64,000 bases of DNA, taken from the NCBI RefSeq assembly GCF_000151665.1, contig NW_013171838.1, positions 757,001-821,000 of the forward strand, read 5' to 3'. A program made the position numbers and the translations under genes. A model generated the notes under the pieces. It was not told the DNA's origin. It did no database searches and worked only from the letters and a program-made list of their open reading frames with translations. Shown here piece after piece: positions 18,048-57,439 of the stretch (its first letter is position 1; each line of letters opens with the position of its first letter). Source of the stretch: Blastocystis hominis. Lineage: Eukaryota > Sar > Bigyra > Opalinata > Blastocystidae.

Positions 18048-18493
18048 ATTCGACTTATTTTGATGATTGGATTTGAAATTCTTTAATAGCAGTACAATCA
18101 TTTACGTTAAATGAAATGATTAATAGTGAATCAAAAATAGTAAAATTGATTAGGGTAAAAACACAAATTGGTAGCGAATAATCGACAATCTATGCTTGTC
18201 AAATTTCTAAATTCTATATGGAGTGTGTGGTATGTAGTGTAAGAATTCGTTTATCAGAATTGTTTGAAATACAACTTTAGATCGATATTTCTCTCCAAAC
18301 TCACGTCTTAATCAATTTATATATTCACTACATGTGAATTCACCCATTGAAGTATCATCATAATCATTCTAACCTTTTTTTAGCAATTCTGTGAATATCA
18401 ATTGTTAGGAAACTTTAAAAAAGGTTTCGCATGCTTGTACAATAATATGCATAGAATTAATGTGAACAACAAACAAGAATACCAATATCATTG
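18048..18493. other. AT-rich spacer
   Basis: About 450 bp of AT-rich sequence between the small secreted gene and the giant locus, both on the minus strand. No coding frame or structured element is recognised. Confidence 0.5.
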
Positions 18494-21400
18494 TTAAGAA
18501 ATACCAACGAATCGTTTATACTCTTGGATTGTAGTATTTGTAATCACTTGTATGAAATTTGTCTCTGTTGTAACTTCAGCACTATCTACAATTTCTGAAC
18601 CTAGGGCTGATTGCATTCTATTCATTGTTAGTCTAATCTGAGCAGGATAAATGGGCATGAACATTATGCGCACATTTTTAAACAGTAGAATATCCTCATA
18701 GATTCTGTACCATACAGTGAAAATGCTTTCTCCATTGATATATTCTCTCACTTTACAACCTGGTGTATCTCCATGATATGCATAGTCTCCAACGACAAGA
18801 ATCAAATGGTTGTAATTATCAAAAGGTGGTTGTTTCATTTGTTCTAACGCTCGAATCAATCCTCCTTGAATATCTCCACATCCATCTCCGCCACCACTTG
18901 TTCTAAATGAATCAAGTTTGTGTTTCAACCATTCAAAATCACTAGTAATACACTCTGCTTGCTCTCCATGTAAACGGTCATGAAAATTCTTATACTGTAC
19001 TACTTGACCCACAATTCCTCCTTCAGGAAGATGATAATCTTTCTCGATCTTCTTTAACTGATTCAATATTTGTACAATGTTATCTCTAGTTGCATTGATA
19101 TACGGTCTCATTGATCCTGTTGTATCCATCACAATACTCAAGCAGAAATTCACCTGTTTTTTGCTTGCTACCTTTCGTTTTTGCATCAGCTTCTTATCAG
19201 GTAATATAACTCCATCCATCTTGATTCCAGAAGTGAGGCTAGGATCCAAGAATCGTTCTTCTTCAAACTCTTCTGTGTTACACAACCAAACTGCAGCATT
19301 GCTGATCCATCGCGCGGTTCCATCTTCTGTGAACTCCAAAAACAGTTTCGATGCAGCTGTATCAATTATCATCCTGCCTTCATCACTTCCTTGGTTCTTC
19401 TCCCTCACCATAATCGAAGCATGCCCTTCACTTTCTCTGGCAAATACACGGAATCCAATTTCTTCAAATTGATATTCACTCAGTGTACAAAGTGTTCTTC
19501 CCTCAAAAATACTTACTATCCCAAAATCCAGACGAGACAAGTTAGAATAGTTCAATGCATCTCCTCCAATTGTGATGAAATGGCCTGCTTCGGGTGCTTC
19601 GTTTTTCACTCGTTTCATCACTTTACCTCCTTCTATGGTTTTTTCTTTGTCTCCCACTGCTTCAAATCCATAGAATTTCTTAAAGTACAAATCAGCTTCA
19701 TAAGTGAATGGGTAGTTCTCCAAAAACCAGAATACACCGCCTCCTCTCCTATTGAATTCGTGGACACAGCTCACAAAGGCATCTGCATAATGATCTACAC
19801 TATTATCACATTCTTTTGCCATGATTCCATCTCCAGGAGAACATGTTATGAACGTCATTCGATATTTGCCGCTCATCAACTCATTAATTGCAGATATGTA
19901 ATCAAATGCATAACGGATGTTAAACCCTTTCCCTATGGGCTTTCCATTAATATTCCTGTCTCCGAGTTTCAATATGGGAGAGAACCTTTCACTCTCCACA
20001 ACTTTTCCATTTCTCAAGACTTCCTCTGTGATAAACTCATCAATCACGTTTCCTTTCTCATCTTTCTCTCCTCGACACAAATAAAGAATAATGAACAAAA
20101 TCGAATAGTGACCAAACGCTCCATCCACTCCCAAGTCATATCTGCTGTCGTTAATATCATTAATCTTTTTCATTGCATCTTTTCCATCCGTCTCATCATT
20201 GAATCGAACACTACTCAATGTAGTCTCATAAATACTGGGGATATTGCAGATCGTCTTTGTCAATTCTCCATAAGTCTTGTCAAATGTTCCATTCCAAATC
20301 ATTCCATCTATTTTCTTCTCTGGAACTGCATTCGTATTGGTATTGACTGATGGAGTTGTCAGATTCATCAAGGTTTCGGACAATCGAGCAGGATTTGAAT
20401 TCCAAATCATTGTGGGGAACAAATCTTCAAATCCACACAAATACAAGCCAATTCCAATTCCAAGATAGGTCATTTCGATTCCACTCACAATCGATTTGAT
20501 TTCTTCTCTGGATTCATTACATAACACACCATTTGTTAACACCATCATTACAGATTGGAATGATCGAGTGTTACAAGTACTACAAGCATAACGAATACAA
20601 TCAGGCAAGCAAGTATTTTGACAAGGAGACAGTAATGCATGATACAACGCAGCCACAATATTGCTTTCCCACAAATCCATAGATGATATGCCTGTTGCTA
20701 CACGAATGATTCTAGATGAAGCCACCCACAAATCAATGCAAGGCAGTTGCATATTACTTAGATTTCGAAGCATTGTGAAGATCGTGATCAATGAATGAAC
20801 TCGGTTTGTTTCACTGAATGCGATTGAAGAGCAATCAATCACAATACTTGCATTGTAACTTCGAATCTTTTCACTTCCAAGCTTTTTGAAAAACTTGCCA
20901 TCTCCCGTTTTGCTAACCACATATTTGATGTAGTTTGCCATATGAATCGAAGTTCCTGAAGTGGATGCAACAAAGGCTGTTGATTTATTGGGAACGAACA
21001 GAGACATGTTCATTGCATCAAATAGATTTTCACCTTGAATCACTCCATTCAACTTTGTCAATCCAGAGGAATATCGCATCGATTTTGGACAAAATGACAA
21101 CTCTCCTTCTAACAGATCCACAATGGTTGCTGCCTTGGGACTTGCTATTGTATTCAATAGGATAACAGATTTATTCACTTTAAATACGAATTTAGTTGTG
21201 ATATCTATTGCAGAACTGAAGTTTATAGCATTATCTACCCTTTTACATTTATTAGGCTTCATCAAATTTTCGTCAAAGAAGATACTGCACAAAGGAGCAC
21301 AAAATAAATCATGAACTCTAGAAAAATGAATAATAGAAGTAAAATTCAATTTTAGAGCCTTTAATTGCTTTCGTTTATTGCTTTCATTAATGGATTCCTT

Positions 21401-22288
21401 ATTTCTTCCAATTATCCAAATTAAGTGCAATTTTTTGTACTTATTAAAAATAGTTTTGACATCATCGTCCTGAGACATCAGTTGTTCACTGAATCCATCA
21501 CTCACAATCACGATAGGATCGTTCTCGTCAAATTGATCTTTCACTGTCAATAGATCCAGAGGAGTCGAGGGCATTTTTACAACTTCTTCCATGTCAAATA
21601 AGAAGGAGATAATTTCACGAATCGATCGATCTTTCATAGAAACATGCACACCTTTATATCTCCCACAGAACACATACAGATTGAATGAAATGCCAAGTTC
21701 CTTCAAGATTGTAATCAGTATGGATGTTATGATTGACCTCATTCTTAATTTTCCTTTTCTCAAGCTGCAATTTGTATCAATAATGATATTTATAGTAGAG
21801 TACATACGATGATTTACCATTTTTTTCATAATATAACTGATTAACTGAGAAGACACAGACAACACTGCCTCGAGAACTGAGAAAGGAATTTTAACGTTTT
21901 CATTTGTCAAAGTCACTGTTTGGAGACTATTTTTGTTACTTAACGGCTTCACATACTTGGAAGTAAGTCTTCTCTTATATACCAAACTAAACAAGGCGTC
22001 CATTTTATAGGAGTTTACCACTTTCAAATATGATTTGTAATCTATCGATTTATACCTTAGATCGATTTCAGTTTTCGGTGTTTCTTCTTTCTGCATGTCT
22101 TCAGAATCTACTGCAATAAAAAAGTCTTCTTTATGAAGTATGGCTTGAGCTCGTTGTGATATCAATTCAACCACTTCATTTTTCAAGGTTCCCTTTTTCC
22201 AGATTCTTTCAACTTCTTGATCTGTATTCCTTTTTACCTCAATTAATTCCACAGTTACCTCACTTGAAGCACACTTTTCTTCTACCAA
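18494..22288 (-). CDS. Triple-vWA protein with amidotransferase-like region; probably the C-terminal part of the giant AAA protein
   Basis: A 1,264-residue uninterrupted frame. A vWA-like domain (about 165-310) has a degenerate metal site (INIIIDTNCS) and IVIVSDGFSEQL. A second (about 480-640) has IVIDCSSIAFSE. A region at about 720-1010 (TFITCSPGDGIMAKECDN, GGGVFWFLENYPFTYE, GHFITIGGDA) looks like a class-I glutamine-amidotransferase/BPL-N-type Rossmann fold with no proven catalytic triad. The third vWA (about 1045-1240) keeps a MIDAS-like motif (SIVMDTTGSMRPYINATRDN) and GGGDGCGDIQGGL. The frame is open upstream of its first Met, back into the AAA frame. A 26-nt GT-AG intron (22408-22383) would fuse the two, giving a midasin-like order with vWA at the C-terminus. 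Confidence 0.85.
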   Translation of the reverse strand: MVEEKCASSEVTVELIEVKRNTDQEVERIWKKGTLKNEVVELISQRAQAILHKEDFFIAVDSEDMQKEETPKTEIDLRYKSIDYKSYLKVVNSYKMDALFSLVYKRRLTSKYVKPLSNKNSLQTVTLTNENVKIPFSVLEAVLSVSSQLISYIMKKMVNHRMYSTINIIIDTNCSLRKGKLRMRSIITSILITILKELGISFNLYVFCGRYKGVHVSMKDRSIREIISFLFDMEEVVKMPSTPLDLLTVKDQFDENDPIVIVSDGFSEQLMSQDDDVKTIFNKYKKLHLIWIIGRNKESINESNKRKQLKALKLNFTSIIHFSRVHDLFCAPLCSIFFDENLMKPNKCKRVDNAINFSSAIDITTKFVFKVNKSVILLNTIASPKAATIVDLLEGELSFCPKSMRYSSGLTKLNGVIQGENLFDAMNMSLFVPNKSTAFVASTSGTSIHMANYIKYVVSKTGDGKFFKKLGSEKIRSYNASIVIDCSSIAFSETNRVHSLITIFTMLRNLSNMQLPCIDLWVASSRIIRVATGISSMDLWESNIVAALYHALLSPCQNTCLPDCIRYACSTCNTRSFQSVMMVLTNGVLCNESREEIKSIVSGIEMTYLGIGIGLYLCGFEDLFPTMIWNSNPARLSETLMNLTTPSVNTNTNAVPEKKIDGMIWNGTFDKTYGELTKTICNIPSIYETTLSSVRFNDETDGKDAMKKINDINDSRYDLGVDGAFGHYSILFIILYLCRGEKDEKGNVIDEFITEEVLRNGKVVESERFSPILKLGDRNINGKPIGKGFNIRYAFDYISAINELMSGKYRMTFITCSPGDGIMAKECDNSVDHYADAFVSCVHEFNRRGGGVFWFLENYPFTYEADLYFKKFYGFEAVGDKEKTIEGGKVMKRVKNEAPEAGHFITIGGDALNYSNLSRLDFGIVSIFEGRTLCTLSEYQFEEIGFRVFARESEGHASIMVREKNQGSDEGRMIIDTAASKLFLEFTEDGTARWISNAAVWLCNTEEFEEERFLDPSLTSGIKMDGVILPDKKLMQKRKVASKKQVNFCLSIVMDTTGSMRPYINATRDNIVQILNQLKKIEKDYHLPEGGIVGQVVQYKNFHDRLHGEQAECITSDFEWLKHKLDSFRTSGGGDGCGDIQGGLIRALEQMKQPPFDNYNHLILVVGDYAYHGDTPGCKVREYINGESIFTVWYRIYEDILLFKNVRIMFMPIYPAQIRLTMNRMQSALGSEIVDSAEVTTETNFIQVITNTTIQEYKRFVGIS

Positions 22289-22382
22289 CTCGGTTCTGTG
22301 ATTGTCAAAATGGGAGGTTATATCCCATTTTATGTTAAAAGACTGGTGATCTAAGACTTCTAATGCTGCCTTCCTAGGGCGA

Positions 22383-22408
22383 CTGAGTGGAATACATTCG
22401 TTAATTAC
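22383..22408 (-). other. Putative 26-nt intron joining the AAA and vWA frames
   Basis: The minus strand reads GTAATTAACG...CACTCAG. The donor GTAA itself forms the TAA that ends the AAA frame. Removing 26 nt gives CG+T then CGCCCTAGGAAG, in frame with the upstream extension of the vWA frame. With the other 14 introns removed, the total from 34964 to 18494 is 15,984 nt, divisible by three. It is shorter than most introns here, so transcript evidence is needed. Confidence 0.55.
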
Positions 22409-25400
22409 CGGTGAATCGATAATACTCGTTTGGCAAATGATTGATTTCCTAGCAAATAGGGGATTTTGCCAAAACTGTCCACGAAATCAGATATACAATG
22501 ACTTTTGAGTTTATTAATATATGATTCTACATCCTCGTTACTGATATCACAATTTAGAGTATTACTTGGCTCAGATTCAACAAAGTACTTGAGACAACCA
22601 TTTCTATCATATTCAAACCAGTTGTAACCGTTAACAATTCTTTTTCTATTAATCTCAATTCCGTTATCCAATTTGCCCCATATTTTAACTTTCTTTCTTC
22701 TTCGACTATCTACAAAATACAGGGTCAACGAATCGGCGTCACAGTACAATACTTTCTTGTCTGAATCATCGATTTCGCATGCTTGCTCAGTTTCAATCAG
22801 TGATGGTGTTTCAATATGCTGAAATGCGAAATTACAAACCTTATGAGCTTCTTTTGAACCAGATTTAACTGAAATATTAATTGATATCTTGATTTGACCG
22901 TTTTCACTATATTCGAAAACATTATCGCTCATAGTCAAACTAATGAACTGATCAGTCACTTGTAAATCGCAACTATCACTAGAAAACGATACTTTCTCAT
23001 CGCCAAATACAATGTATGGTATTCGAATACAATTTGAATGTCTTCCCTTATAATGCATTGGAAGCTTAAATAAGTCATTCTCTGGAAGTATAATCTTCCA
23101 ACCATTTCTTGTATCAATTACAATAGTATTCTTTATACCACAATATTCATTTACATTTCTTTTCGACTTTTCTACTGTTTTAGGAAAGAAGTAACATATC
23201 ACAGAATTTAGTTCATTTTCTATCTGTTGTATTTTAACTTGCAATTTTTGTTCATTCTCTTTGCTCAGAGCCTTTTTAGAATCGAGGTATTTCGTATGTA
23301 GCTCATTATAGTTCTGTACATCTTCTTTCGATTCCTCATCTACAGATGCCATTACTTCATCTCCCGTAATGAAATCATTTAGTGTCCATTCTTCCTTTAT
23401 TACTTTAGTATTGACTTCATTGATTGGTAGGATATCATTTCCTGAAGTAATTTCAGAACACTCGAAAAATTTAGTTGATCCCTTCATTATAAAAGAGATT
23501 TGCTTGCTATAAACCGTTAAACATGATGATGATGGTTTTGAAATGCTATGGTTACTAGCATATTCCAGAATATCGTGATCCCTAATATATTTGGCTTCAT
23601 ACTTTAAATCTAGACTCTTCATTAGTGCTATCATACAGGTAAAGCAGCATCTTGTGTTAGCATTTTCAATGATTGCTTTATCTTTATCTTTTATATTTAG
23701 CTTTCTCTTACTAAATTCCAAAAAAAACGACTTTATCTTAACGGAATCATCTTTAACAGTTATATTCCATTTATAGGGAGCTAGGGGCAATACAATTCCA
23801 ATTCTATTTTCCATAGTTATTATATAGGATGTATCATTAACATTGATTTTTAAGGTGGATTTGTTCAAATAGCAATCAATACCATGAGGTGGTGATAATT
23901 CGATAGTCACAGGTTCCTCCGTTTTACAGTTTTCAAAGCATAATATCTGAAAAGAGAATATTTTGTATTCATCGGCAGCTTCAGAAAATAAAGTATCATT
24001 CTTCATATCGTGTTTAGGGTATAATTCTTTCATGATCATATTAACCGCACTAAAACAACACAACATTTGTATTGTTTTCTTATTTCTCGTTTCATATTCT
24101 TGACTCTTACAACATTGCTTAGTTTTTTCCTCAGCTAAGCGTGTATATTTTTCTATAATGGTTTTCTTCATAGTTTCAAGCTCTTCACACATTTTTCTGC
24201 ATTCTTTTTCTTTTGCATCGTATTTTTGTTTTTCTGCATTTAACTTATCTTCCAATTCTTGTTTCCTCCTTTTCAATTTTTCACTTTTCGTCTTCAGTAC
24301 TTCATCTACCAACTGATTGATAGACCTGGAATACTTCAAACATTCAATTGCATATTCTCTTAGTTCTTTATTTAATAGCATATCTTGTACAACCTCACCA
24401 ATCAAATTTCTTTTTCTCGGGCAAAGGATACATAGTTTTTCCTCTTTACTCAATTGACACTCATGCTTTAATACAATATCATCTGGGTCGTCCTTTGCTT
24501 TCAGAGAAACAATATCTCTTTCACATTTCAAAATGGATTGACTGATGACAACGCCTTCAGGTACTACTTCAGGAAGATCACAAATCCAAGAATGCTGAAC
24601 AGCCTTTATCTGGCTTACCGAAAATCGCTCGATATCGCCATTTTCATCAACTGCTCGAAGTAATAAGGGCAAGCATATCGTTATACTTTTTACTGGAGTA
24701 AGTATTATGAATTGTTCAGAAAGTGCTGTTTTCAAATAACACAACACATTAGGGTTTTCACCATGCTTTTTTTTGTAAGTTCTATACCAATCTCTTTCAA
24801 ACAACATTTCAATGGCTGCTTCAAAGTCTTCTTTAGTCACTTCAACAGGAGTTATGAATGGATATTCGCTGTAATCCTCTAACAATTTATTCCAATCCAA
24901 GTTTTCCATTTCCTTTTTCAGCAAAACATTCAACATTTTCAATAAGTGGGGAAGGAGAATTGATGAACTACTGAATTCTTTTAGAATATCAGTCACATTC
25001 AATTCCAATCGATTCAATACATCTGCATATTCACTCAATATGAATGGATAGTTCTTAAATGTTTTCAGTTTATAAATCAAATGAGATGTTTTTACAATGA
25101 ATTGATTTGCTGTTGATTTATATTCATACTTGGTATACTTTGACTCACTGACATTGAAATTCAAGGATTTGTATGTTTTGCTATCAATCATCTTATCCTC
25201 AAATGCCTGTTCCAAGTAATTCTTTAATTCTTGATTCTTACTACAACTGTATTCTGCTTCTGTAAATCTGAACTTCATTCCTTGCTCATCATCATCATTC
25301 TTGTTACAATTTATAACACACATTTTAGCAGCAGATTCGATTGTTTCAAGAGTGCTAATTATTTCCTTCACACAATTTGATTCTTTTATTTCAGATGGGA

Positions 25401-28400
25401 AGCACTCAATGGATCGATTCACTGACTGAATTGAATTCTGAAGATTCATACAGTCGGTATACTTTGCCTTATTTCTATAATAATTGTCTTTCTTAAGTAC
25501 ATCCAAATAGATTTCTCGAATATTGATGATTGCCTTCATCATTGGTTCTGCCATGACTCTCCATTCACTGTTATCCATAATCGCAAATACTTCAAGTGCC
25601 AAATCAATTAATACAGTTTCCTTCATATAATCACATAATTCATTTCTTCTATCACAAATAAACAGCAATTCCAAATATATATATTGTTCGGTTGTAGGAA
25701 TGTCAAATAACTGCTTGATTGTGATTCCTTGGTCAAACATGCAATCTGACATTTTGTACTTGCTATTCATTTTCGGATCAATCGAGGAAATCAAATACCA
25801 ACGACGAAGAACACCTGCATTTCCTCCTCTTTGCCTCTTCATCATACAATTCTGATGATTATCCATTTCGAGTACTTTGATGGCACAATCCATTACATAG
25901 TAAATGAAATGGTTTTCAAAACACTTTATACAGCTTTGTAGTAGTTCGATAGTGTCGTCGATCACAAATCCACTCTTTGTGCTTGTACAAATCTTCTCCA
26001 TTATAGCAATCATTCGAGTCATTTTTTCAGTTTCTGACAAACTATTTACACTGTTCAAATAGTCAAATAATTCGTATTCAATAGATTTGGGGATTTCAAT
26101 CTTTGAAACCAAAGCATTTCTCTTCGGTGTATATCCAAATTCAAACAAGAATGCATCTCTTTCTTTACTGTTTATTACTCGAATACATCGTCGGAAGGTC
26201 TCCGATTCTTTAATTCCAAAATTACAAGGATCGCATCTCGATTCATTGATTTGGCAGATTTCTTGAACATTTGCTTGAGTCGATATTGGATCACAATACA
26301 CAATCACACAACGACTCAAGAATGGTCCAGTGAAGTGTTTCAATGTATTGTCCGATATTGTAAAGAAGATTCGGAATGCTTCGTGAATCCTTCTCTCACC
26401 CCTTTTCGGTCGCATTGAATACGTTATTTCTTCATTTCCTGCTAATACCTTCAATGTTGGGTTTTCTTCACACAGAGAATTCAGCGATTCCATCACATCA
26501 TTGTTTGCCAAATGAATATCTTCGATCACAATCCAATCCCCACTCTCCATTGCTTTCAACAGCGGACCTTCTCGGAATTTGATACATTCATTCCCATTTT
26601 CATCAATTCCAAGAGTACTTCGACCAATGAACACATCTGGAGAGCTTTCGTGATTCAAAAACACCGAAGTGCATTGTTTATCCCACATCAATGCCAGATT
26701 CGAAATACAATACGATTTGCCAGAGGGAGAAGATCCATAAACCAAAATAGCTCGTTTGGATTGTAAAGCAAGACTCAACTTGAATATCGTCACTTTCTCT
26801 GTTGAAGTGAAACAATACTCTTTGAAAGATCCTGAATACATTTGTTGTGTTTCAATGTCCCAATAACCACGAACAACACATTGGTCGTCTTGTTTGATAA
26901 TATCAACTTTCAATGTATCTTCCAGCTTCAATATCTTCTCGATTTCTTTTCTCTCCGATTCTTCATAACGACAAGCAAACACCAACCATAAAGCAGTTTC
27001 CAATGATAGGTTATTTCCATTGTTCACAATCTGATCCACTTTCAATACATCTCGAAGTGAGAATGGAATCGATGTCTTTTGATAGGAGTTGTAGGAATAT
27101 TCAAACAAATCAAGAATCTGATTCTCTGTTGATTCATCTTCCGATTCCATTACATTACTCAAGATTTGACGAGCTGTGAGGAACAATTCATTCAATGTGT
27201 ATTTCAAATCACGATGATAAATACAATACTTGTAGAATTGACGAGGCAATGTGCTGCGATTTGCTGACATGGATGCTGGATTCATACAGCAAATGATCAG
27301 CATGTTCGATGGAATTTTGATCAAATCGCCTCCTGGAACTTGGAATGGATCGTGATTCACATAACAACGAATCAGAGTGAGTAATACTTCAAGCACATCT
27401 GATGGAGCCAAATTCACTTCATCTAATAACAATGCGATTCGTTGATCTGAATGATCTCCTCTTTTCAATAGTTCTGTAATACTTCCATCTCTAAATTGTA
27501 ATGATCCATTCACAATCGTATAACATCCAAACAAACTGTCAATCGTTATGGTATTCGAAAAATTGATTCGCTTATAGTCAAGATTCTCCTTTACGAAATA
27601 ATTCTCAGCAGAAACAGTTTTGCCTACTCCAGGATCTCCTTCAAGAATCAGAGGAAGATGACTTCGATCTGCCAATACAATGGATGCCAATAGCTGAATC
27701 GTGGTCTTTGTAGGAAGTAATGGATGCTTGGAATGAAGGCTGGATTCTATATCATCAATAACATCATTTGTAAATAGGAATGATAGAGTTTGCTTCACGT
27801 TTTCTAGCATTGCATCATCCTTGTTGCTTGATTGAAGGAATTCACTCACTTCCTTCAAATCCTTATTCATCATTCCCATTTGAATCAGATTCTCTCGAGA
27901 TGCCAAATCAGATTGAAGGAATCGAAAATAGAATGGAATCACTTTCTCAGCATTCACAAATTCATTCCTCAGCATATTTGACTTTCGTAGAATGTGCAAA
28001 GGATAGTCATCTCGACTTTCAAACTCATATTTCGCCCTTTCTAATTCAGAATAGGGTTGACAAAACACTTGAATGAATTGGTCTTTCTTTGCAACTCTTC
28101 CATAATCTGGATCTTCGCATGTTACAATCGCATTCACAGATTCACCAAGAATCTCTGTTTGAATTTGGGAATAATCTTCGAATAGACTAAACTCTTGCGA
28201 ATCCAAACTAAACAACAATGAATATAATCGAGGAAGCAATCGGTCATTCAATAGATTGATATTGTTCAACACGATCGAATTGTTACTCATTATCGAACGG
28301 AGAATCGGACCAGGACGCATCATGAGCAATGATTCATAATCTGCCACGCTATACAATAACCTCTTCAGGTATTCTCGATATACCTCCATCGGAGTTCCAT

Positions 28401-31400
28401 CAACATTTTGGATCGATGTTTGTCTCAGAATGTATTGAATGTCTTCTTTACGACAAACAGAAATCTCACCAAATGTGTGAGACATTTCCATTGAACGAGA
28501 CATTTCCATATGAGCAGCATTGGGAAACAGCAAATGAGTGACTTCAGAAGCAATATCTGAATCACCAACCAATAACACAGGAAGGTGAGTTTGCTTGAAA
28601 TTGGAAATGGAAATAGTAAACAATGCAGTCAATACAGAAGAATCCAAATCCTTGAGCTTTGAATATTCGATTGGCACTGTTGTTTCGAGAGGTCCACGTT
28701 GAAGCAATGACCTAGATTCATTCTTTGGGGATTTTCTTGCTGTTACTGTTGGAGTTGACAAAACCACACTTGCCATTTCCAATTCTTCTTTCACTTCCGT
28801 ATCAGATGTCTTTTTCCATTCTTCTATCACTCTCTCAAGTAGTTCTTTGCGATCCATTCGATTTGCAAACAATGCTGCTACAATCCAAATTGGATGAGGA
28901 GAATTGAAGCAAATCTTATCCAGAGTGAATACTTCATTCAATGGAATCTCACCACTATCAATATGATCACATAATCGTTTGCAGATTTCACTATTCATCA
29001 ACTCTTTCGCTTCATCACTCTGGATTGGACTCATTTCACAAATATCGAAATAAGCAGGAAGAGAAGGCAACGAACTCACTCGACGTGTTGTGAATACGAA
29101 CAAAGCTCGGAATGAAGGATGAATTGAATGATTGATAGAAGCTGGATAAGTGAACTCATCAGTGAAAGGATCACAAACAGTATCAAGCATTTCCAGTAAT
29201 TCTGCTGACATGTTTTCAGCATTTTCGAATATCACTAATTCTCCATTTTCTACAGCTTGAATCAATCTTCCAGCTCGGAAATCGCCATTCATATCCACAC
29301 TTCCCATCAGAGTGGAAAACTCGGTTTCTCCAGATACACTGAACACTTGATAGTTTCTGATAGAGAGCTTATTGATGATTTCGCGAATTGCATAGGACTT
29401 TCCACTGCCTCTAGGTCCACACAGTGCCACAGCCTTGTTCCTACAAATACAATAGAACAATCTCGAAGCTTCAGTCCAATGGCTTCGAAGGGATTGCAGT
29501 TCAGGAATTGGCTGTTGTCTAGCGAGCATTTCAATCAGAGATTCATCCAATTCATATCCAGCTAACTGAGTGGCAAAATAAGCCATTCGATGGAGTTCTT
29601 GCTGCTTGAACCAGTCGATTGTTTGAGAATAATCATGAATCAAATCATCAATCTCATCTTTATCCTCACTATTCTCAAGCTTGGGAGAGTTTTCAAATCG
29701 CTTTGCATCTTCATGACTCACAAATACTTCCAAAAATCGATTTCTCAAGGCAGGAGAAAATGCCAGCAATCCCTTCTCAGACGTTGTTGCGATTACACGG
29801 AATTCGGGACTCATTTCGAATTCCGGTCTTTCTCGACGTTCATCAAATCGAACTACATGATGATGGCCATCTGCAGGTGATAATTCCAACACAGAGTTCA
29901 ATCGCTCGATCACATTCGATTTCATCAAATGCATCGACTGAAGAACACAAATACCTCCATTTTCAATCGCTTTAAGCAATGGAGAAGGACAGAAACGAGG
30001 AACTGGTTTGCCTTCATCATCATCTTTCTCGAGCGAATAGCTTCCAATCACACTTTCTGTTGAAGAAGTCGAACTGCAATGAATCACTTCACAGGATGTT
30101 CCTTCATTCTGCATTATCTCCATTATTGCTCGACAATACTTTCGAGATACATATTCTGTTTCTCCAATCAATAGAACATGACATCCAGATTCCAATCCTA
30201 GTCGAACTCGATCATACACATCCTTCCAGCATTCCTTGTCTAATGCAGCTTTGCTGAAAGTAATATCCGCTTTGAATACTGGATTTGTTTTCAAATCTTC
30301 ATTATATGCGATTTGTAAAGCTCGATTCAATGCTTTGCTTTCACCGATTCTCTCTTTATCCATCAGTGTCTCCATCATCCATTTTGTTCTACTACAATCT
30401 CGAAGTGTGTAATCCTTCCCTTTATCAATCTCTCTTCCAGACACATTCTTTCGATTATCAGCTCGATCATGAACATTACACACTCTTTCTCCAATTCTTG
30501 TATCTCCTCCAAACATCGCCGTTATGATGTCCAATCTTTCCTCTCTGTCAATCATTGGGAAGTATTTCTGTTTCGTTGAATCGTGAGTGACAAAACGGAA
30601 ACAATCGCGAATTGCAGAAGACAGATTGTTTCGCTTGTAAGAACTTCCAGCAGGATTCTGAGTGGCAATAATGCGGAAATCTCGATGCATTACACGCTCT
30701 TCACTTCCATCCTTGCCTTCATGAAGAATCTTCTTGCCAAACAAATACGATAACACACTCTGAACCACAGAAGGAGGAGCCAGAGACATTTCATCCATCA
30801 ATAGCAGTTTGCCATGAATGAATGCATCCGTGAAAGCTCCATCCTGGAATTTGATCTTTTCAGTATCATCGTTCGTAATTACCATATCTCCAAGCAATTC
30901 CTCAGTTGTGGACGAAGGACTGAAGTTGTATCTCACAAAGGGAACGAGAGAACGTCGACAGTATTGCTCCACCGTGAATGTTTTGCCTGACGAGGTCACT
31001 CCCTCAATCACCACTGGAATGTTGTATTGAATCACATCTTCCACGATTTGATTTCGAATTTTGGTTTGATTTGTTTCTCTGATAAACGGAGGATCTTCTT
31101 TCATTGTTTTTACATATCGATAGGCTTTCGATTCGATATACTTCCAATCCTCTCTGTCAGAGCGTATTGCCATGATTAATTGAACGTATTCCTCTGTGGA
31201 ATGGAAAATGAGCACATTGGATCTGCATAATACAGTGATAACCTTATTCTCATCAAGAGGAGACAAAATGCCAATCGTAGCATTCTTCACTCCAGAAATG
31301 CAGTGGAAATAGATTGTTTCAGGAATGATATTATGAGTTTGAGCTTCATTAGAATTGATAAGTGGAAGAATGAATGTTGTTTCCTGTTTCTGCAAATGAG

Positions 31401-34400
31401 GTCTTCCACTGAAACTAATCGTATCTCCCATATGAGCATAATCACATCCATCAGTCAAAGCAGATTGAAGGGAATAATATTTTTCATATTCTTCTATGAT
31501 CTTTTTCTCTTTTGTTTTCTTTGTTCTAAATGATCCACTTGTTTCATTATAGACAAATTTGGATCTCTTGTAGATTACATTGAGAGAATCAAACATCTCT
31601 GATACACCATTATTTGTTGTTGTTGTTGTTTCATACACTAAAATCGATTCATCATTTCCATAACTCCGATTATTGTTCTTCATTATTTCAAACTCATGAT
31701 TTTCAAAATCAGTGAACTCTAATGTAAAAATAATATATCACAATAATCCTACTAATCTCTTGAATTTTGTGATTTGTAGCTAAGTCCTCATTTTGAATGT
31801 TAAGCTTGGATTGATTATTAATATGGTTTCCATTTATCTTCACATCGAATTCTCTTTTCCTATTACTAAAGACTTTAAATGATAACTGGATTGATGACAA
31901 TCTCTTTCTGGATGAATTGGATTCTTATGATAACGAATTAATGAATATTATTACTTAGAATTATGTTTATTGTACCTTTAAACTTCTGTTTAGTAAGGAG
32001 ATCACACAAATCGTTACACTGTTTGTCTGACAATAAAGTTACTAATAAGTAAATAAAAACAAAATGACCATACATGGTAGGATAAATTCTGTTAAAAGAA
32101 AGCTTGTATAATGTTCGTATATACCAGAAACTTCACTCTCTTGGTCTGTATATCACTGATTTAAAAAAGCATACCGCTAATAGTGATTGTCTTTATGGTA
32201 CGTAGTCCCCTTGCTATTAACAGCCTCGACAAGCCAATGAAACTGAATTTTGTCGTTTTCCCTGTATTGAGATTATAATGTTAACCCTACAATAAACATA
32301 ATAACAAAGTGTTGAGTTATCGCAATTAGTAATTATAGTTGGTTCCCAGTTATTAATTTGGAAAATCTCTTTCTAATTATCATTCTTAACATCGAATTGA
32401 ACCTTATAAATTGTAATGCTGACTGGACTATCTGTTCGTTTAGCCAGATCGTCTACAGATTGAATCCTTTTTTTACCATCTATAAAGAACAACTGACAAC
32501 AATTGCATTTTGTAAAATTCTATATCTTAACTTGATGATATAGTATCTTACGGCGATTTCTTTGTCTATTTCTTCAGTTCTTTCCTTAACCTCAGGATTC
32601 GAGATATCTATTTCTTTCTTGTCCTTGTCAAATTCAAGTAGAATTTTGATTGCCGTAAGCGTGGTCTTCTCAACCGGTTTATGTCCTTCATTATCGGCTT
32701 TTAATCCCCCCATTGCATTTGTCTCTTGTTTATTATGTTCAGCATGTGTATCTATCTCGGTCTTTTCCTCCTTATTTTTCTTTTTTATTTCACAACGACC
32801 TGCCTTGTTTCCGTTCCTCTTTGTTTTGCTGCTTTCATCTTTACACTCGTTGCTTAACTGAGTATCCTTATTTTTCATTTCATTTCTTTCCTTTTTCTCT
32901 GTGGCAAGACTATTTGTTTTGCTATTTCCTTTGTTTATCTGTATCCTTTCCAATTCTTTTCTCTTATATACTATTGATGAATACAATTTGCAAAAGATAA
33001 TACCATCAAACTCCTGAGAATCTATGTCTTTCATTATTGTAGAATTTTCAATTATGTCAAACTGTTTATGAATTGTAAGGACAGTTTGTTTGAGAATTGT
33101 CTTTATTGCCTTCACTTTTTTCAGCTACAGTTCATTCCTTTCCTCAGAAATACAGCCAAATAGCTTTCTATAATATCGGAAACTGTTTTTTCGGGTTCAT
33201 ATTGTAGAGCAATCAGTTTGTCACCTTCATACAAGTGTATTTCCTTTTTAATTTCTGTATCCTTATCTACAAAATAGTAGTAAGCTAGAACGATATACAC
33301 TCTAATTCCATTTTATTCTCAACTCCTTGTTTCACAAGTGGTACATCTGATTTGAGAGGTTTTTCTACACCTTTAATATATAGCTGACCTGTTGAGGGAT
33401 AATCTGTTTCACTCAGAATGTCACGTAGCGTTAACTTTTCGGTTAACACAAACTGAATAATGTCGTGGGCGTATTGCACTGTAATAATATTCGTCTCATC
33501 TGCGATATACACTATGAATTAGTTACAAAAGTTGCTAGTAGACATATCATATTTTCTCCTGAGAGTCTTTCTGTTTGCAAAAGAATGCGATTATAGCCCT
33601 TTTTTACAACAACATACTCATCCAATTCCGTATCATTGCCGCATACATCCTATTGATGAGCATAGCAATATACTTATACCATAATCAATTGCGCAATTGT
33701 GTCAGTCTTTTCCATTGTTAATGGAATTTCCTCACTCTCAGCAAAGACACTAAATGATAGCATTGATTGGTTGGACTCCTCTGAATTTTGGACCAAAGAG
33801 CTGGTGGAATGCTGTTCTATGAGAGAATCGAATTCTGCATTCCCATTATGGTCCTGTACTCTCTTTTTGTTGTCTTCCTTATGTTTTTTGTTGAGAGATC
33901 CAGTATTATCTTCATCACTCTCTTGAATGGCTGCTTTTTGCTTATGGTTTTCGTATTTCGGTCTTTTGCCTGCTTCTGCCTTTGGGACATTAGTCGTAGA
34001 ATCCAAATGATTTGAAGAAAGAGTACTCGGATGCAGACCTATCATACGTAATTTCTCGTTTGCTGTCTCTTCGTAGTCCAGAGAAGAGTATGATAATTCG
34101 GAAGAAATACTTTGTTGTGAGTCGTCTGACTCTGAATTGGAATTACTACTACCATCTGATAACTCGGGTAACTCCATAAAATCAACTGCTTGCCTTGGCT
34201 TTTCCTTTACAGAATCTCTCCTTCTTTTCAAAGCAGTTTTGATCACTGTGTATGAAAAGAAATGATTCTGCTTACATGATACCGTATCCGTATTGCGTAA
34301 GTTCAACTCTTGTATTGTTACGTAGTCCTCGACACTGCGATTATTCACTACTAAAGTGTATAGGAAATAATCTGTTTTGCATATTTTCTCATACTGAATA

Positions 34401-34964
34401 TTCAAATTGAATTCCTACTTTCACTAAATCTCTCACAGTTGCAAACGGATTCACTTTTACGGACAGTAGAATCTTGTCCTTATTAACCGATATTTCAACG
34501 CTCTCCACACAGACCAAACTCAAAGTCATTGAAATTCCACAAAAAGGAAGAGTGGAAGATGATTCTAGCATTCTACCATTTGCAGTTTTCAGAATGTACA
34601 TCGAAATAGGTTTATTCGAGAGTTTAAATTGAGTTACGCACTCTTGAACAAGCCGGGAAACTCGTATATTTGTATATGAACGAATTCTTTTGACTTTTTC
34701 TTTCCACTGAATTGTATATGTATATTTCATTAGTATGCATACAGTCTTTTTGTCTGATATCCAGTCCATTATTGGTTTTGAGGTTTGCACTCTTTTATTA
34801 TCATGTGTAAATGCTATATCCGCTTTTTCGCACTGTACTCTTGTCTAGGGATGAGGAAAAGTAATATGTCAAACCGTGATTTCCTCTAGATACATCGACA
34901 AGCTATCTGATGGTTGAACATAGAGCTTGAACTGCTCAGTTCCTGTATCGAAAGTAATATTCAT
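22405..34964 (-). CDS. Giant midasin-like protein: ubiquitin-like segments, six AAA modules, coiled coil
   Basis: From ATG 34964 (MNITFDTGTEQFKLYV), fourteen introns of 25-52 nt thread a continuous frame of about 4,030 codons. Several are exactly 30 nt, for example 34874-34845, 34276-34247 and 33679-33650. Residues 1 to about 940 hold several beta-grasp, ubiquitin-like segments separated by Ser- and Lys-rich linkers. The last 9.3 kb exon holds six AAA modules. P-loops are intact in module 1 (GVTSSGKT, with LLLMDEMSLAP), 3 (GPRGSGKS), 5 (GDPGVGKT, with LLLDEVNLAP) and 6 (GSSPSGKS). Modules 2 and 4 have lost them. A coiled coil (about 3390-3455) and a beta-rich tail follow. Single-chain six-AAA rings are known from dynein, midasin and RNF213. 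The DEVNLAP-type Walker B fits the midasin/MoxR side. Substrate and location are unknown. Confidence 0.85.
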
Positions 34965-35228
34965 CAGAATTTTTATGTGTCATTGAAGGAAAGATGTTTC
35001 TTTATTTGTGGGTTTTGTATTTTTATACTTTTTGTCTTATTTTGCATAAATTCATTAGGAAATAGACCTCTACGTCTTCTTTATTAAGAAAACGATGAAT
35101 TCACATCACCCTCTGTAGTCGCTATCTTCAAATTGGGACGCGTCTCGTTCGAGACATTCTTATTGTTTCCCGCAATAAAGATCGAAAATAGAATTCTATC
35201 AAGTGAAACACATTTTTTAGTTTGTACA

Positions 35229-36061
35229 ATGTCCTCTTTTGTTTTTAAAGGGAAAATGGTGATTGTTGGTGATATAGCTGTCGGGAAAACGTCACTAGCA
35301 TCTCGTTTCGTGGAAGATAAGTTCCCAAAGAATCATATAGCCAGTGTGGGAGGTAGTGAATGCAATCTTCGTGTGTTGTATAGTTGCATACTTTACAAAA
35401 ACTCTTGTTGTGGATGAACACCTTACTGTGAAGTTCGATATTTGGGATACAGCCGGACAGGGTTTAAAGATTTGCCGAGAGGAATAATTGCGTAGAACGA
35501 TATCGTAGTATTAATAAGCTATATTATCGCGGTGCTGCTGCTGCGGTTATTGTTTTTGATTTAACGCAAAAAGCATTTTTCTCAGCATTGAAATGACTTG
35601 TAGTCGACGTTTGATGCTGTAAAATCCGAATGGTTGACGAACATCCGTTCGTGTGCAGACGATAATATAAGTATCATTGGTGTTGTTTTCCGAGATGCTT
35701 AGTCATTGTCCTTGCAGGAAACAAGAGTGATATGAAGGAGAATTGTGTTGTTTCTCACGAAGTCGAAATTTGATTTGCGGATGATGGTTAGGAAATAGAG
35801 GATTTCTGTTCTAAGGAAAATCTGTTATATGTTGAAACGAGTGCTTTGACGGGAGAAGGTGTGTCAGATCTCTTCGTCAAGATTGCGCTGCGTGTCCAAG
35901 AAAGCATGACCTCGGACGTGAAAACTGGATTTCAGCTGCTGGAGATGAAAGCAGAGAACTCGGATCAAGTGTAGAAGGTTTTTGCGGGGACTCATCTTTG
36001 TAGAAAGCTGAGCGCTGCTGCCGCTGCTTCCTCTCCGAAAAAAGGATGTTGTAGCAAATAA
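35229..36061 (+). CDS. Rab-family small GTPase (Rab5/21/22-like)
   Basis: Membrane-traffic GTPase. P-loop GDIAVGKTSL, switch I ASVGVAYFTKT, switch II WDTAGQERYRSINKLYYRGA, GNKSDM for guanine specificity, ETSAL, and a C-terminal KKGCCSK with two cysteines for geranylgeranylation. Seven exons are joined by introns of 30-34 nt. One intron (after TQK, about 31 nt) begins GC instead of GT and restores STFDAVKSEW. The switch and effector wording is closest to the Rab5/Rab21/Rab22 endosomal group, though I would not fix the isoform. The stop is TAA at 36059-36061. Confidence 0.9.
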
Positions 36062-42330: not shown

Positions 42331-45300
42331 TCTATAGGATTTAGGCAACAGCAATCAAATTTGTACAATCATTGCAAAAGAAAGCAGCAATGTCGCAAAG
42401 AAGCTGCTCAACCGAACGGTGCTCAAAGAGAGAAACCATAACGAGATATATCCTTCTCTCTTTAATCACCTACATCAAAATCGCAGCGAAAGACGACTTT
42501 ATTATAAGAGAAGCCAATCTGGTCCTTATCGAGATTGCGCTGATAATAAAACAACTATCATTCGAATAGTTCAGCTATTCGTACCACCGTTGAAGAGACT
42601 GCATAGACAATTAAAAAAAGAGAAATCATCACTGCAATAGGTAATTGTTTGAAAGAACTGGAATACAATGGAGGGAAAGGCCTATTTCTGGAATTCCCGA
42701 AATTGACAGCACATCCGTTTAAAAACCATGTTTCTCTCCTGAGATCTCTAATGGATGATTTTGTTTGGTATGAATGCATCTATCCTGGAAATAGCTCCAG
42801 TTTTTACACCAATATTAAAACTGGAGCTGTCGTAAAGAATGTTCCGCAAGATGATCCGGATGTTGCTAGAATCAGGAATTTTAGTTGTGATGATAACTTT
42901 TCGAAAGATTGCTACCGATATATATCCTATTTTATGGAATTGTTATAAATCTTAATTATCACATTAGTACAGCCCGCGAATCGTTTGCGAAGGAGAGACC
43001 GGAGGAGGTTAGCGTTGAAAAGGGATCCATGGTGTTCTGCTTTAGTGAAGAGATCGACGGATGGGTGTATGTGCGAACGATGAAAGGGGAAAGCGGTTAT
43101 GCCCCTGCCAGTTATCTGAATCCATTAGTTTTGAAATTCCTCGAACGAGATACTATTCACAGCAGATCGAGTGACATCATTAGCTCAAACACAATGGGCC
43201 ATGACATTCACGGAGTTGTCGTGGCAAGTTTACGTCCAACGAGAAATGGTACTTATTCAACGTCTTTTTCTGTGAATTCAACTGATTTTTAGGTATGATC
43301 TAGATCGCTCTTCCAAAAGAGTCATGAGCAACGCCACCCAAATCAGTCAGCGCAGGTCGATTCAACGAACAAAAACCGAAATCATTTGTACATCTTTCCT
43401 CTCTTTTCCAACATACAGCGAACCATTTGCTATGTTCTATGCTTCCCTTCTTCATTCGGACCGTTTTTTCTCATCCCTTTGTTATTCCGTATGACATCGT
43501 AGTGCTTTGTGCTGCGAGTAATCTTTTTAGTGGATCATCGAGACGTTAAAATCGAGGTTGAACTTGCAACCAGCACAATTCAACGAGATTCTGACCAAGT
43601 GCAACGTTTCCGTGGATATCTACAACTCCTACACTTCTCTCATGTGTGTGAGCACGATGTCTCCCGATTTTATCCTATTCCGAGGATTGTTTGGCAGCTA
43701 CAGCAGTCCGTACTCCTCGAACCAGTCGTTCAGTCGGTCTCGACCTATGCAGCGCAGCAGTTATTCTTCCCACAGTAGTGCGTCTGACCTACCTGCAGAG
43801 AGTACTGGCGGTGCGCTTCCGAAGGAGAGCAAGAGCGACAAGAAGAAGCCTTCGAGAAAGTCGCTGCCGAGCGCGCTGGAGGCACGGAGAATCACGGAGT
43901 TGGAGGAGGTCAACACGGAAGTGATGAGCACATCCTCGAAGGTGTCCATCCCGCAGTCGGCAGCCAGCTCGATCAACGAGTCTGCGGACAAGCCGGTCTC
44001 TCAAAAAGTGGAGAAGGCGGCTGCTGCCGCTGTGGGCAAGTCAGACGGCGACGTTTTGAAAGAGGGAACGGCCAAACCCGACGAAGTGGTGTCTGACAGT
44101 CAAGCAAAGAGCTCTTCACAGCCACTTCCTACTCCTCCAGAAGCAGCGGAAGCGACAGAACTGGTCGAAGCGACAGAGAAGACAGTAGTGCCAGGCGCTG
44201 CAGAAGCAATAGAGAAGACAGTAGTGCCAGGCGCTGCAGAACCAGCAGAAGCGCCGAAAGAGACCGTAGTACCAGAAGTTCCGAAGGAGACAAAAGTTCC
44301 AGAAGCGACGAAAACACCAGCGGCGAATGAAAAGATAGAACAGTCCGTAAAGGGAGGCTATCGAACCATCGTTGTCCCCCCGATTTGCACCGATTCCGCC
44401 GCCTTCAAGACGAGCGAGGTAGGACTTTTTCGCTCTCGTTCATCAAGCAGATAAGCGGGGAGACTCCGAAACAAGAGCAAGAGGCTACGCCAACCCAATC
44501 GGTTCCAGCGTATCCCTGCACACAACCTCGCAATACATCTCCTGCCACGACTTCAGCCCCGTCCGCTCCGATTCTTTATTCGGATCTGAACGAATACGAC
44601 TTCATGCACTACGCATCGATCTATTTCCAGCGAAAGAAGCCCCGCCTATTCCACTCGTTCTCGCTGGAGGAGCTCATATCGTACACCACGGAAGTGCCTC
44701 TGCGTCCGCTGCACTTCATTCATCAGCTGATCACGTCGACGGTTCTGGAGATCGAGCGGGACATCATGATCTTCATGGACATCACGGTTGGATATATGTC
44801 CTCCGAGTCCACTTCCACCGTGAACAAGAAGCTGCTGGATAACATTGTCTACCAGAGCTTCTGGAGTCAAAGCATCTTTGACGAAGTGGTGTGCTTCACG
44901 ATGAAAGAGATCAACAACAACCCGCAAGAGACGAGTTGCTATCTGGGATTCAAGCTGCTCTATATCTTGCTGATGATGCGTCGTCCGTCTCTGCCTCTTT
45001 TGAAGTATGTGCTCTCCTTCGTGTATCGGCAGATTGTCGATTCGAACGTGGGAGGCTTTGCCCGCGAGATCATGAAGGAATACTTGGAGAATCCCAGCCC
45101 AGCGATCGGCAACTTCGACATGAATTGGTTCGCGAAGATCTGCGACCTGGCCGACCAAGGCTTCAAGCCCTTCCCTCTGTCCCTGGCGCATCTTTCCTTG
45201 AAGGAGATCATTGAGACGGAGAACTTCGCGGGCATGCTGCTGAGCCACGGCATCATGCCGCCAAAGAACTTCTCCTATGCGTGGTACCCCCTTTCATGTA

Positions 45301-46800
45301 GTTCCGCATCGCTGACTCCACTGGTAGGCACTTCGATCTGTCGCGACCCCTACGTGCACCAAATGTTTTCCTCGTTCCTCCAAGGAGTGATTCTGTACAT
45401 CCGAATCACGCACGACCGCGAGTTCAAAGAGCGGCTCGTCATTCTGGACGAGTCCCTTCTGAAGATCCGCTGGATGTCGCTCCACTCCACCAAGCCGAAG
45501 CTGCGCGAGTTCCACGTGAAGGACTTCGAGGTGAGTGTGGCCGTTGGTGCCGATTCGTAGAGCGTGAGTTGGATCAAGGGTTCCATTGAGGGACTGAACC
45601 ACCAGGAACTTTTCGCGATCAAGCTGACGCTCTACAACACCGACGAGACCATCAACATTGCAGTGTCCTCCCATATCGAGCGCGACCGCGTCTTGCGGTT
45701 CCTGAACCAGTGGATCAACTGGTATCAGCTCTACGCGCAGGATCTTGACTCGATGGACCCGAATACCCTGACCCAGGAGAAGAAATCGCTCTCGGAAGAA
45801 GACACGCCAGGGAAGAAGTATCGCCGCTCCCTCGAGCAGTATTTGGACACGGTGGAGCCGTTCGCTGCCTCTCTGACCAACCCGTACAATAGTCTTTCCG
45901 ACTCGTGCAGCACTCCGCACTCCACCACAATATCGCCCAGCAACTCCATGTCGGGTTCGTTCCCTCAAACCAAGTCGGGCAAGCGCGGATTTGACTTCAG
46001 TGCGGTGAACGCGGACGCGGTCGACCAGCTCAAACGCAACCAAGTGCTGTCGAAATCGACCGCCACGCCGCCCAATTCGCTCACTCCGGTTTTGAACTAC
46101 TCGACTCCCCAGGACAACATCATCCAGCTACAGTCGCTGATTCCCTATCCCTATCACGACCACATTCCGAAGATTTTGCAGGTGCTGGTGTACTACCTGT
46201 ACAAGCTGGACGCCTACTCCAGCGAGGGTATTTTCCGCATTTCCTCGCTGGAAAGCACCACGCAGCAGCTGAAGAACGACCTCACCGACGGCTGCTATGC
46301 GGCGATCCTGGACGTCAATTCGGGATTTCTGATCGCAAGTGGGAGCATGCAGAATGTATGAGCTGTAGACATGATCAAGACGGTTCTCCGAGGGCTGCGA
46401 CCCATGCTGATCGTCGATTCTGTCGAAGCGAAGATCCTTCAGCTCGGAAAGCAAAAGGTCATTCCTCCGGAAGAGGCGTGGCGCATAATCCAAGAACTGC
46501 CGCCAGAGAACTATAAGACGTTCATGTATATTATGACGATGATTCTGTACACGTCACGCGTGGAGGTGAATCGAATGAAGGTTAATGCGCTTCTCCTAGT
46601 TTTTATTATGAACTTTATGCGTTGTGGGTAGGAGGTGATGGAGGTGTGTGACCTGCAGATCCGATGATGATGATGAAATGTGCTTTAATGCGATGAATAT
46701 GGTGAATTGGGCGTTACACTTTTTCGAGGTCATAGCTGACACGTTAGAACAACACTTTGATATATCAGAATTTGATGATGATTTCCCCAAAATTAATTGA
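42247..46800 (+). CDS. WW-SH3-MyTH4-RhoGAP multidomain protein
   Basis: A cytoskeletal-type Rho GTPase-activating protein. A WW domain lies near 42.76-42.85 kb (WYECIYPGNSSSFYTN), then an SH3 domain (ESFAKERPEEVSVEKGSMVF, EIDGWVYVRTMKGESGYAP). A long Ser/Ala/Glu-rich linker follows, then MyTH4 (PLRPLHFIHQLITSTVLEIE, CYLGFKLLYILLMMRRPSLP) and RhoGAP (YYLYKLDAYSSEGIFRISSL, VLRGLRPMLIV, LPPENYKTFMYIM). The RhoGAP arginine finger is GIFRISS. Introns are about 26-44 nt. The end is firm: a 31-nt intron leads to an acidic tail and TGA 46798-46800, then TGTTTGTT two bases on. The first exons (before about 42,380) are uncertain. Confidence 0.82.
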
Positions 46801-57083: not shown

Positions 57084-57439
57084 AAGAGGATGCGTAGAGT
57101 GGTTGTGTGTTTGTTGGAAAAAAGAATTGAAGGGTGTGGTGTGTTTTTTTGATGGAGATTGGAATAGGATAGAGAGATTCTGTGTTGGTGCTGTTCCCTG
57201 ATGAGATAGAATAGGTTGCATAACAAGAATATCAAAAAAGCGGGCAAAAAAGAAGCATTCTTTGAAGCAAAGGACTATGAAATAGAGTCACTGATTCTTT
57301 GCGACAGACTGGTTCTGGGTTCTAGAACAAAAAAGAGTCCACGAAAAGCAAGATAAAACACAGAGTTTGACAGTATGACTTTTGACCAATCAGTTAGCGA
57401 TTCTATTTTCCCGTAATCTATTGCTTGTAAATAAAAATA
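57084..57439. other. Intergenic region
   Basis: About 355 bp between two plus-strand genes. It is AT-rich toward 57,400. No feature was recognised. Confidence 0.5.

Follow-up and report, generated by a model that had tools for sequence, protein, structure and literature searches.

A dispersed Blastocystis hominis gene family related to midasin, with a near-uniform AAA ring and divergent flanks

Introduction

Midasin (Rea1/Mdn1), which remodels pre-60S particles, is usually treated as a single housekeeping gene. A 64,000-nucleotide stretch of Blastocystis hominis DNA (contig NW_013171838.1, positions 757,001 to 821,000; hereafter the window) carries on its minus strand a giant midasin-like gene, and raises the question of whether this is the cell's midasin or something else built on the same ring. 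An initial annotation described it as a single locus. The midasin-like gene stands, but that picture missed the wider family, some 14 genes in which the motor is homogenised and the flanks vary. We consider it probable that the window gene belongs to a family of midasin-descended mechanoenzymes distinct from the cell's own midasin, in which gene conversion homogenises the motor while the recognition parts diversify.

Results

A midasin-type ring beside a separate canonical midasin

According to a gene model based on coding score and an intron profile, the window gene (18494..34964, minus strand) runs from an ATG at 34964 to a TAA at 18494-18496 and encodes one protein of about 5,330 residues. 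Its ring aligns with a midasin profile over 1509 columns (hhalign, probability 100, E 1.8e-54, midasin 300-2342), matches AAA_5 in five stretches (3.3e-57) and has midasin as its best PDB sequence match (1.9e-49). Module by module, all six Walker A positions line up in sequence with those of midasin AAA1-6, bearing out the six AAA modules in one chain of the initial annotation. AAA1, 3, 5 and 6 have intact P-loops, whereas AAA2 and AAA4 have lost theirs, a pattern constant in all 11 copies compared (see below); the ENA relatives P0005 and P0006 have four P-loops each.

The genome also holds a canonical midasin gene, on contig C13 at about 1306-1321 kb, with AAA_lid_5 (1.6e-30) and AAA_lid_7. 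One piece of it is 47% identical to yeast and 52% to snail midasin over about 500 residues; the other is 23-54% identical to midasins in shorter matches and contains a stretch rich in aspartate and glutamate (D/E, 56 per 100 residues). The window protein is 24-31% identical to these pieces where alignable. A protein search with the C-terminal part of the window family gave nine matches, two Blastocystis and seven ENA entries, with no other named organism represented, in a search that depends on shared 5-residue words and a length window. The initial annotation had proposed a lineage-specific midasin relative, with a second, canonical MDN1 as the test; the C13 gene is that second midasin and, together with the narrow range of C-terminal matches, supports the proposal.

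Like midasin, the family combines a single chain, six colinear AAA modules, a long tail and C-terminal vWA-type domain(s), but it differs in several respects. The midasin lid families PF17865 and PF17867 (AAA_lid_5 and AAA_lid_7) have no match in the window protein P0001 at E 0.1, and a genome search with PF17867 returned four matches, three in the canonical midasin (C13, 1314.8-1319.8 kb) and one in a dynein on C18, with none in the window family. We did not find a D/E-rich stretch in the main exon of the 11 copies, where the maximum is 22-31 per 100 residues (24 in the window copy) versus 39-58 in six midasins. The long AAA2 insert, which in midasin is an autoinhibitory bundle, and the long AAA6 insert were not found either, Walker A-to-B spacing being 72 and 67 residues versus 178 and 157, respectively, in one yeast midasin. 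Conversely, the window family has the two lost P-loops, a ubiquitin-like N-terminus, three vWA-type motif sets and its many copies. Judged by three tested features, the window protein is not a midasin, but it may work like one.

About 14 dispersed paralogs

We searched the genome (18.7 Mb, 40 contigs) with the C-terminal part and with the ring. The former gave 16 hits, comprising 14 close copies (window included), one distant relative and one fragment; the latter gave 24, of which six were weak hits in the canonical midasin and two were pieces of the distant relative, the rest being the 14 copies again (two of them split). On these counts the window gene is one of about 14 dispersed paralogs. 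We compared 11 copies, leaving out C5, C23, C20 and the distant relative on C13; C6, most of whose middle is missing, was also left out of one identity table. A single open frame of 4,024-4,552 codons is present in 10 of the 11 (one with a run of N), the window copy being the exception, and the main frame of C5 is broken as well. The distant relative (L034; C13, 705001-715000), with about 27% identity over the ring, one P-loop by pattern and a homologous tail, may be an older, degenerate branch.

When the ring was searched against proteins, one named Blastocystis hominis was found, P0003 ('uncharacterized protein'), which starts inside the gene. From Blastocystis ST1 the family includes two proteins, BLSTO_04623 and BLSTO_04308; the latter and P0006 are 83% identical. 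According to passages of the 2011 genome paper, gene calling there excluded predicted repeats (PMC3129679). Because of this rule, and because one named Blastocystis hominis protein contrasts with ten open frames, the family has probably been overlooked so far. The same rule (PMC3129679), the lone named ring protein and the broken main frames of the window copy and C5 would also suit a functionless, decaying repeat or pseudogene family of which the window frame break is typical. We regard this as very unlikely given the open frames of the other ten copies, the purifying selection and common intron positions described below, and a polyadenylation motif just past the stop in 5 of 11 copies (absent in the other 6).

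A homogenised AAA block between diverged flanks

Pairwise comparison of the 11 copies (55 pairs, blastn) sets the AAA block apart from its flanks. AAA-block DNA is 92-96% identical at a coverage of at least 0.93 in all 55 pairs; N-terminal DNA coverage is at most 11% in 50 pairs, and the roughly 1 kb of DNA downstream is alignable in 2 pairs and not in 53. The window block, closest to C15 (Table 1), is 88-93% identical in the longest match to eight other paralogs and gives three separate matches in C9. Synonymous divergence (pS) over the AAA block is 0.08-0.19 and lies below that of the middle in every pair. Median pS is 0.21 directly before the block, 0.09-0.13 in four parts of it, 0.49 directly after, 0.69-0.73 in the middle and 0.40-0.69 in the C-terminal parts. 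Differences at fourfold sites rise from about 0.06 to about 0.5 across about 400 codons of one exon.

Constraint alone is insufficient to explain this uniformity, because ring protein identity is 0.92 within the genome but 0.52 to P0005/P0006; the corresponding values are 0.41 versus 0.27 for the middle and 69% versus 47% for the C-terminus. As judged from these alignments, the AAA block is more alike within the genome than to outside relatives, as expected under concerted evolution. We give almost no credence to a constraint at the DNA or RNA level, in place of gene conversion, as the cause of low synonymous divergence. The ring is indeed also the best-conserved part in protein, but in protein the rings of this genome match those of P0005/P0006 at only 51-53% identity and that of P0004 at 69-71%, so that ring sequence is free to change, and the step in fourfold-site differences falls within the same exon. 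Compatibility between neighbouring sites in the AAA block exceeds all 500 permutations (0/500), an indication of recombination. The AAA tree comes close to a star, with 1 of 8 inner branches supported, versus 6 of 8 in the middle tree and 4 of 8 in the C-terminal tree. The ratio of nonsynonymous to synonymous divergence (pN/pS), 0.16-0.38 in the ring and 0.15-0.50 in the C-terminal parts, supports purifying selection keeping the function of both.

Mosaic copies

In the tail trees the window copy pairs with C15 as its sister, with support of 100/99 for the middle and 100/100 for the C-terminus. Their DNA is 96% identical in the ring, 93% in the C-terminus and 96% downstream; the middle of about 3 kb is similar over only 2%, and among matches of the window middle protein C15 (30%) ranks twelfth, the window itself counted. 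C34 and C38 have downstream DNA, C-terminus and middle in common (92-97%) and N-terminal similarity over only 3%, while C14 and C6 have in common the N-terminus (96% over 71%) and not the downstream DNA. By these comparisons the three sister pairs are mosaics. The ENA protein P0124, up to 99% identical to the family C-terminus here, pairs with C2, and P0123 groups with C14 at moderate support (90/87). Such pairings suggest that tail types are older than the subtype splits.

Recent duplicates that captured unrelated tails and N-termini, without ongoing conversion, could likewise have uniform, low ring divergence and the unalignable downstream flanks seen in 53 of 55 pairs. This seems improbable: tails and N-termini are homologous in protein and N-termini have common intron positions, and thus resemble old versions of a single gene more than captured foreign parts, and the recombination signal lies within the AAA block.

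It is also conceivable, though in our view unlikely, that midasin-like paralogs were amplified and sub-specialised for housekeeping in ribosome or other assembly, with tails under relaxed constraint, ordinary gene conversion and no recognition role. The clearly midasin-derived ring fits this, as does pN/pS below 1 in the variable parts, and duplicated blocks and gene conversion are discussed for the Blastocystis genome in passages of the genome paper (PMC3129679). Yet a canonical midasin is already present, the tails have open frames and conserved vWA blocks, and whole cassettes differ between otherwise near-identical copies.

Tail and N-terminal domains

The middle cassette of the window gene gave no blastn match longer than 150 nt to any of 10 paralogs (coverage 0-5% in 10/10 pairs). 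Its protein is 29-33% identical to that of other copies over at least 470 residues, and 38% over 191 residues in C6. A structure model of C15 makes visible one beta-sandwich and the coiled coil that the initial annotation had noted; the amidotransferase-like region given there found no support. In C6 (L025), nearly all of the coiled-coil/beta-tip stretch has been lost in frame, and the main frame is shorter (4,024 codons).

Three vWA domains had also been proposed. The third is a vWA domain, and the only C-terminal domain firmly established as such. The motif order of the first, small variants allowed, occurs in 19 of 19 aligned rows with sequence there, and its model has an alpha/beta pattern (predicted local distance difference test, pLDDT, about 70); it has no Pfam match. 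The second aligns in register with the midasin metal ion-dependent adhesion site (MIDAS), but the match is weak and non-significant (hhalign, probability 10.6, E 0.0029), and its model has pLDDT mostly below 50. The proposal thus holds firmly for vWA3 and by motifs and fold pattern for vWA1, and is weak for vWA2.

At the other end, a profile of nine paralog N-termini (set A3, without C38 and C34) matches ubiquitin (6.4e-7) and, over positions 2-65, SMT3 (1.9e-6), confirming for the first domain the ubiquitin-like (UBL) modules noted before. Taken singly, one of nine N-terminal sequences has a ubiquitin Pfam match (E 0.0055). The PDB matches of the second segment are mostly ubiquitin-like (best E 0.033), and the third segment has no ubiquitin-like PDB match. 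Set A2 is without the window copy and C8a, and C38, C6 and C8a are not in every typed first-domain or middle-region set. In C34 (L015/L016), two predicted N-terminal introns are each present twice with identical letters, which suggests internal duplication of a UBL-like unit.

Gene structure

The gene model was trained on long exons of the paralogs and extends upstream from the main frame through 14 introns of 25-34 nt (Table 1). The splice profile was built from 123 introns of 26-36 nt, most commonly 30 nt (31/123), which is also the modal Blastocystis intron length in passages of a published study (PMC5608401). Eleven intron positions of the window gene are common to 9/10 or 10/10 aligned copies (C38 left out), and we take the locus to be a genuine spliced minus-strand gene. 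In the window copy, the junction of two minus-strand frames, of 3,110 and 1,330 codons, lies near 22.4 kb. A 26-nt GT..AG stretch there is disfavoured as an intron: because paralogs translate the same stretch in one frame, within which the window copy's frame changes, a frame break (mutation or sequencing error) is more likely. The one spliced frame of 5,327 residues and 15 mini-introns previously described keeps its limits and approximate size, with 14 introns.

The polyadenylation motif described for Blastocystis in passages of the same study (PMC5608401), TGTTTGTT, occurs in 5 of 11 copies at most 75 nt from the stop (two of the five have common downstream DNA) and is absent there in 6. By chance, 0.004 occurrences per copy would be expected from the motif's frequency in the 220 kb compared, or about 0.013 from the genome-wide figure given in PMC5608401. 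A 381-codon plus-strand frame antisense to the vWA part (window 19205-20350) is probably a chance antisense frame.

Table 1. Features of the window gene (positions in the window).
Feature	Position	Strand	Evidence or remark
Homogenised block	24776..31477	-	DNA 96% identical to C15 (blastn)
Ring, six AAA modules AAA1-AAA6	26236..31089	-	Profile, Pfam and PDB sequence matches
AAA1 Walker A GVTSSGKT	30979..31002	-	Walker B LLLMDEMS at 30807; GK[T] kept in 11/11 copies
AAA2 former Walker A GETEYVSR	30142..30165	-	P-loop Lys lost, 11/11 copies
AAA3 Walker A GPRGSGKS	29395..29418	-	11/11 copies
AAA4 former Walker A GDSDIASE	28543..28566	-	P-loop Lys lost, 11/11 copies
AAA5 Walker A GDPGVGKT	27616..27639	-	Walker B ALLLDEVN at 27435; 11/11 copies
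AAA6 Walker A GSSPSGKS	26713..26736	-	Walker B position WIVIEDIH at 26535; 11/11 copies
Variable middle cassette with helices after the ring, a coiled coil and beta-rich domains	21805..24775	-	blastn and protein comparison
vWA-type domain 1	21263..21811	-	Motif DTNCS ... SDG
vWA-like domain 2	20306..21043	-	Motif DCSSI ... TNG; degenerate metal site
vWA domain 3, C-terminal	18500..19162	-	Motif DTTGS
Intron-rich N-terminal region with an array of small domains, one or more of them ubiquitin-like	31719..34964	-	As DNA unalignable between most paralogs
First ubiquitin-like domain	34725..34964	-	Spliced, about 70 residues
Mini-intron 1	34845..34874	-	30 nt; position in 9/10 copies
Mini-intron 2	34394..34418	-	25 nt; window copy only; less certain
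Mini-intron 3	33650..33679	-	30 nt; at this position in window copy only
Mini-intron 4	33512..33543	-	32 nt; 10/10 copies
Mini-intron 5	33267..33298	-	32 nt; 8/10 copies
Mini-intron 6	33125..33153	-	29 nt; 10/10 copies
Mini-intron 7	32971..33003	-	33 nt; 9/10 copies
Mini-intron 8	32520..32551	-	32 nt; 9/10 copies
Mini-intron 9	32373..32402	-	30 nt; 9/10 copies
Mini-intron 10	32262..32290	-	29 nt; 9/10 copies
Mini-intron 11	32146..32174	-	29 nt; 9/10 copies
Mini-intron 12	32042..32073	-	32 nt; 9/10 copies
Mini-intron 13	31924..31954	-	31 nt; 9/10 copies
Mini-intron 14	31719..31752	-	34 nt, directly ahead of AAA exon; 9/10 copies
AAA/vWA frame junction	22383..22408	-	26-nt GT..AG stretch that would join frames
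Polyadenylation motif TGTTTGTT	18468..18475	-	21 nt after stop codon start

Other giant AAA and multi-copy systems, and neighbouring genes

RNF213, a giant AAA E3 ligase (PMC7311170), resembles the window family in its giant chain and dynein-like AAA core. RING/RZ E3 families had no Pfam match in the exon pieces or the C-terminal alignment, the spliced N-terminal region having been scanned in exon pieces and first domains. The dynein heavy chain likewise has six AAA modules and Pfam cross-matches, AAA_7 (PF12775, dynein motor region) lying above the cut-off in P0001 (1.1e-16) and Dynein_heavy below it. No DYN_lid or stalk family is among the Pfam matches of P0001, and no dynein chain is among the nine PDB sequence matches of the ring, where all five giant-AAA ones are midasin; a real dynein heavy chain piece lies elsewhere in the genome (C18). 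VESA1 of Babesia bovis (PMC7485966) also comprises multi-copy genes with conversion tracts; in the window family, by contrast, the homogenised part is the AAA motor, and a crude five-copy hydropathy scan found no signal-like N-terminus.

Directly upstream of the window gene lies a divergently oriented, putative small Rab-like GTPase gene (window 35200-35500, plus strand; MVIVGDIAVGKTSL read by eye). Also on the plus strand are a MyTH4 domain, perhaps a myosin tail piece (44331-45557, 1.5e-10), and an SNF2-family helicase piece (48472-49311, SNF2-rel_dom 1.6e-45). Two plus-strand matches fall below the cut-off, a weak Laminin_G_3 match (3.7e-4) in an 827-codon frame (57431-59911) and a weak leucine-rich-repeat match (652-1614, 2.6e-4).

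Discussion

In the interpretation that we favor, the ring segment would have been copied repeatedly between dispersed genes by gene conversion, with tail and N-terminal segments diverging or swapping between copies. Passages of a midasin study describe how the MIDAS at the tail tip binds the ubiquitin-like domains of Rsa4 and Ytm1, which ATP hydrolysis then removes from the pre-ribosome (PMC6624252). Each family protein would work like midasin, a putative ATP-driven ring and tail movement pulling on a target. As in Rsa4 and Ytm1 (PMC6624252), the window protein has a ubiquitin-like domain that could pair with a vWA/MIDAS; there the UBL is on a separate protein, whereas here UBL and vWA are on the same chain, with a putative contact that would probably gate or latch the machine. 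The variable middle, tail and N-terminus would choose the target, so that one motor could serve many. The proteins are likely intracellular, since a crude hydropathy scan of five copies found nothing like a signal sequence at the N-terminus; maxima over 19 residues were 1.5-1.9, exceeding 1.6 in 4 of 5 copies, which leaves room for a membrane span.

Several observations weigh against this interpretation. The recombination signal is not special to the ring, being present also in the middle (1/500) and the C-terminus (0/500). In the AAA tree a grouping of C34 with C38 is not rejected (approximately unbiased test, p 0.059), a quick protein tree joins the same two (88), and C8a and C8b group in all three trees. 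In the variable middle pN/pS is 0.47-0.67, not above 1, with pS near saturation, so that positive selection there is not demonstrated by pN/pS. Our searches of the family did not find the midasin hallmarks (D/E-rich linker, lid families, AAA2 insert), and profile comparison of the ring covered midasin alone, leaving aside dynein and RNF213. The evidence is weak for vWA2 and for most of the N-terminal UBL array, and the structure models (mean pLDDT 46 and 49) are of low quality except in vWA1, vWA3, the coiled coils and one beta-sandwich.

We raise, as a tentative and rather unlikely extension, that the family forms a diversified intracellular repertoire, in which an invariant, ATP-driven motor core, maintained by gene conversion, would carry divergent and exchangeable recognition tails and UBL fronts and act as a set of target-specific mechanical remodelling receptors. 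If true, its logic would be comparable to that of immune or self-recognition receptor families, on a midasin engine.

Apart from that extension, a common human gut protist has, besides its midasin, about 14 genes of about 16 kb (by arithmetic about 1% of the genome) on the same engine. With synonymous divergence rising from about 0.1 to about 0.7 within one exon, these genes would offer a clear example from nature of gene conversion restricted to a motor domain. The family also allows one to test whether a UBL and a MIDAS-type vWA that share a chain can serve as a mechanoenzyme gate, and whether a motor can be re-targeted by tail swap.

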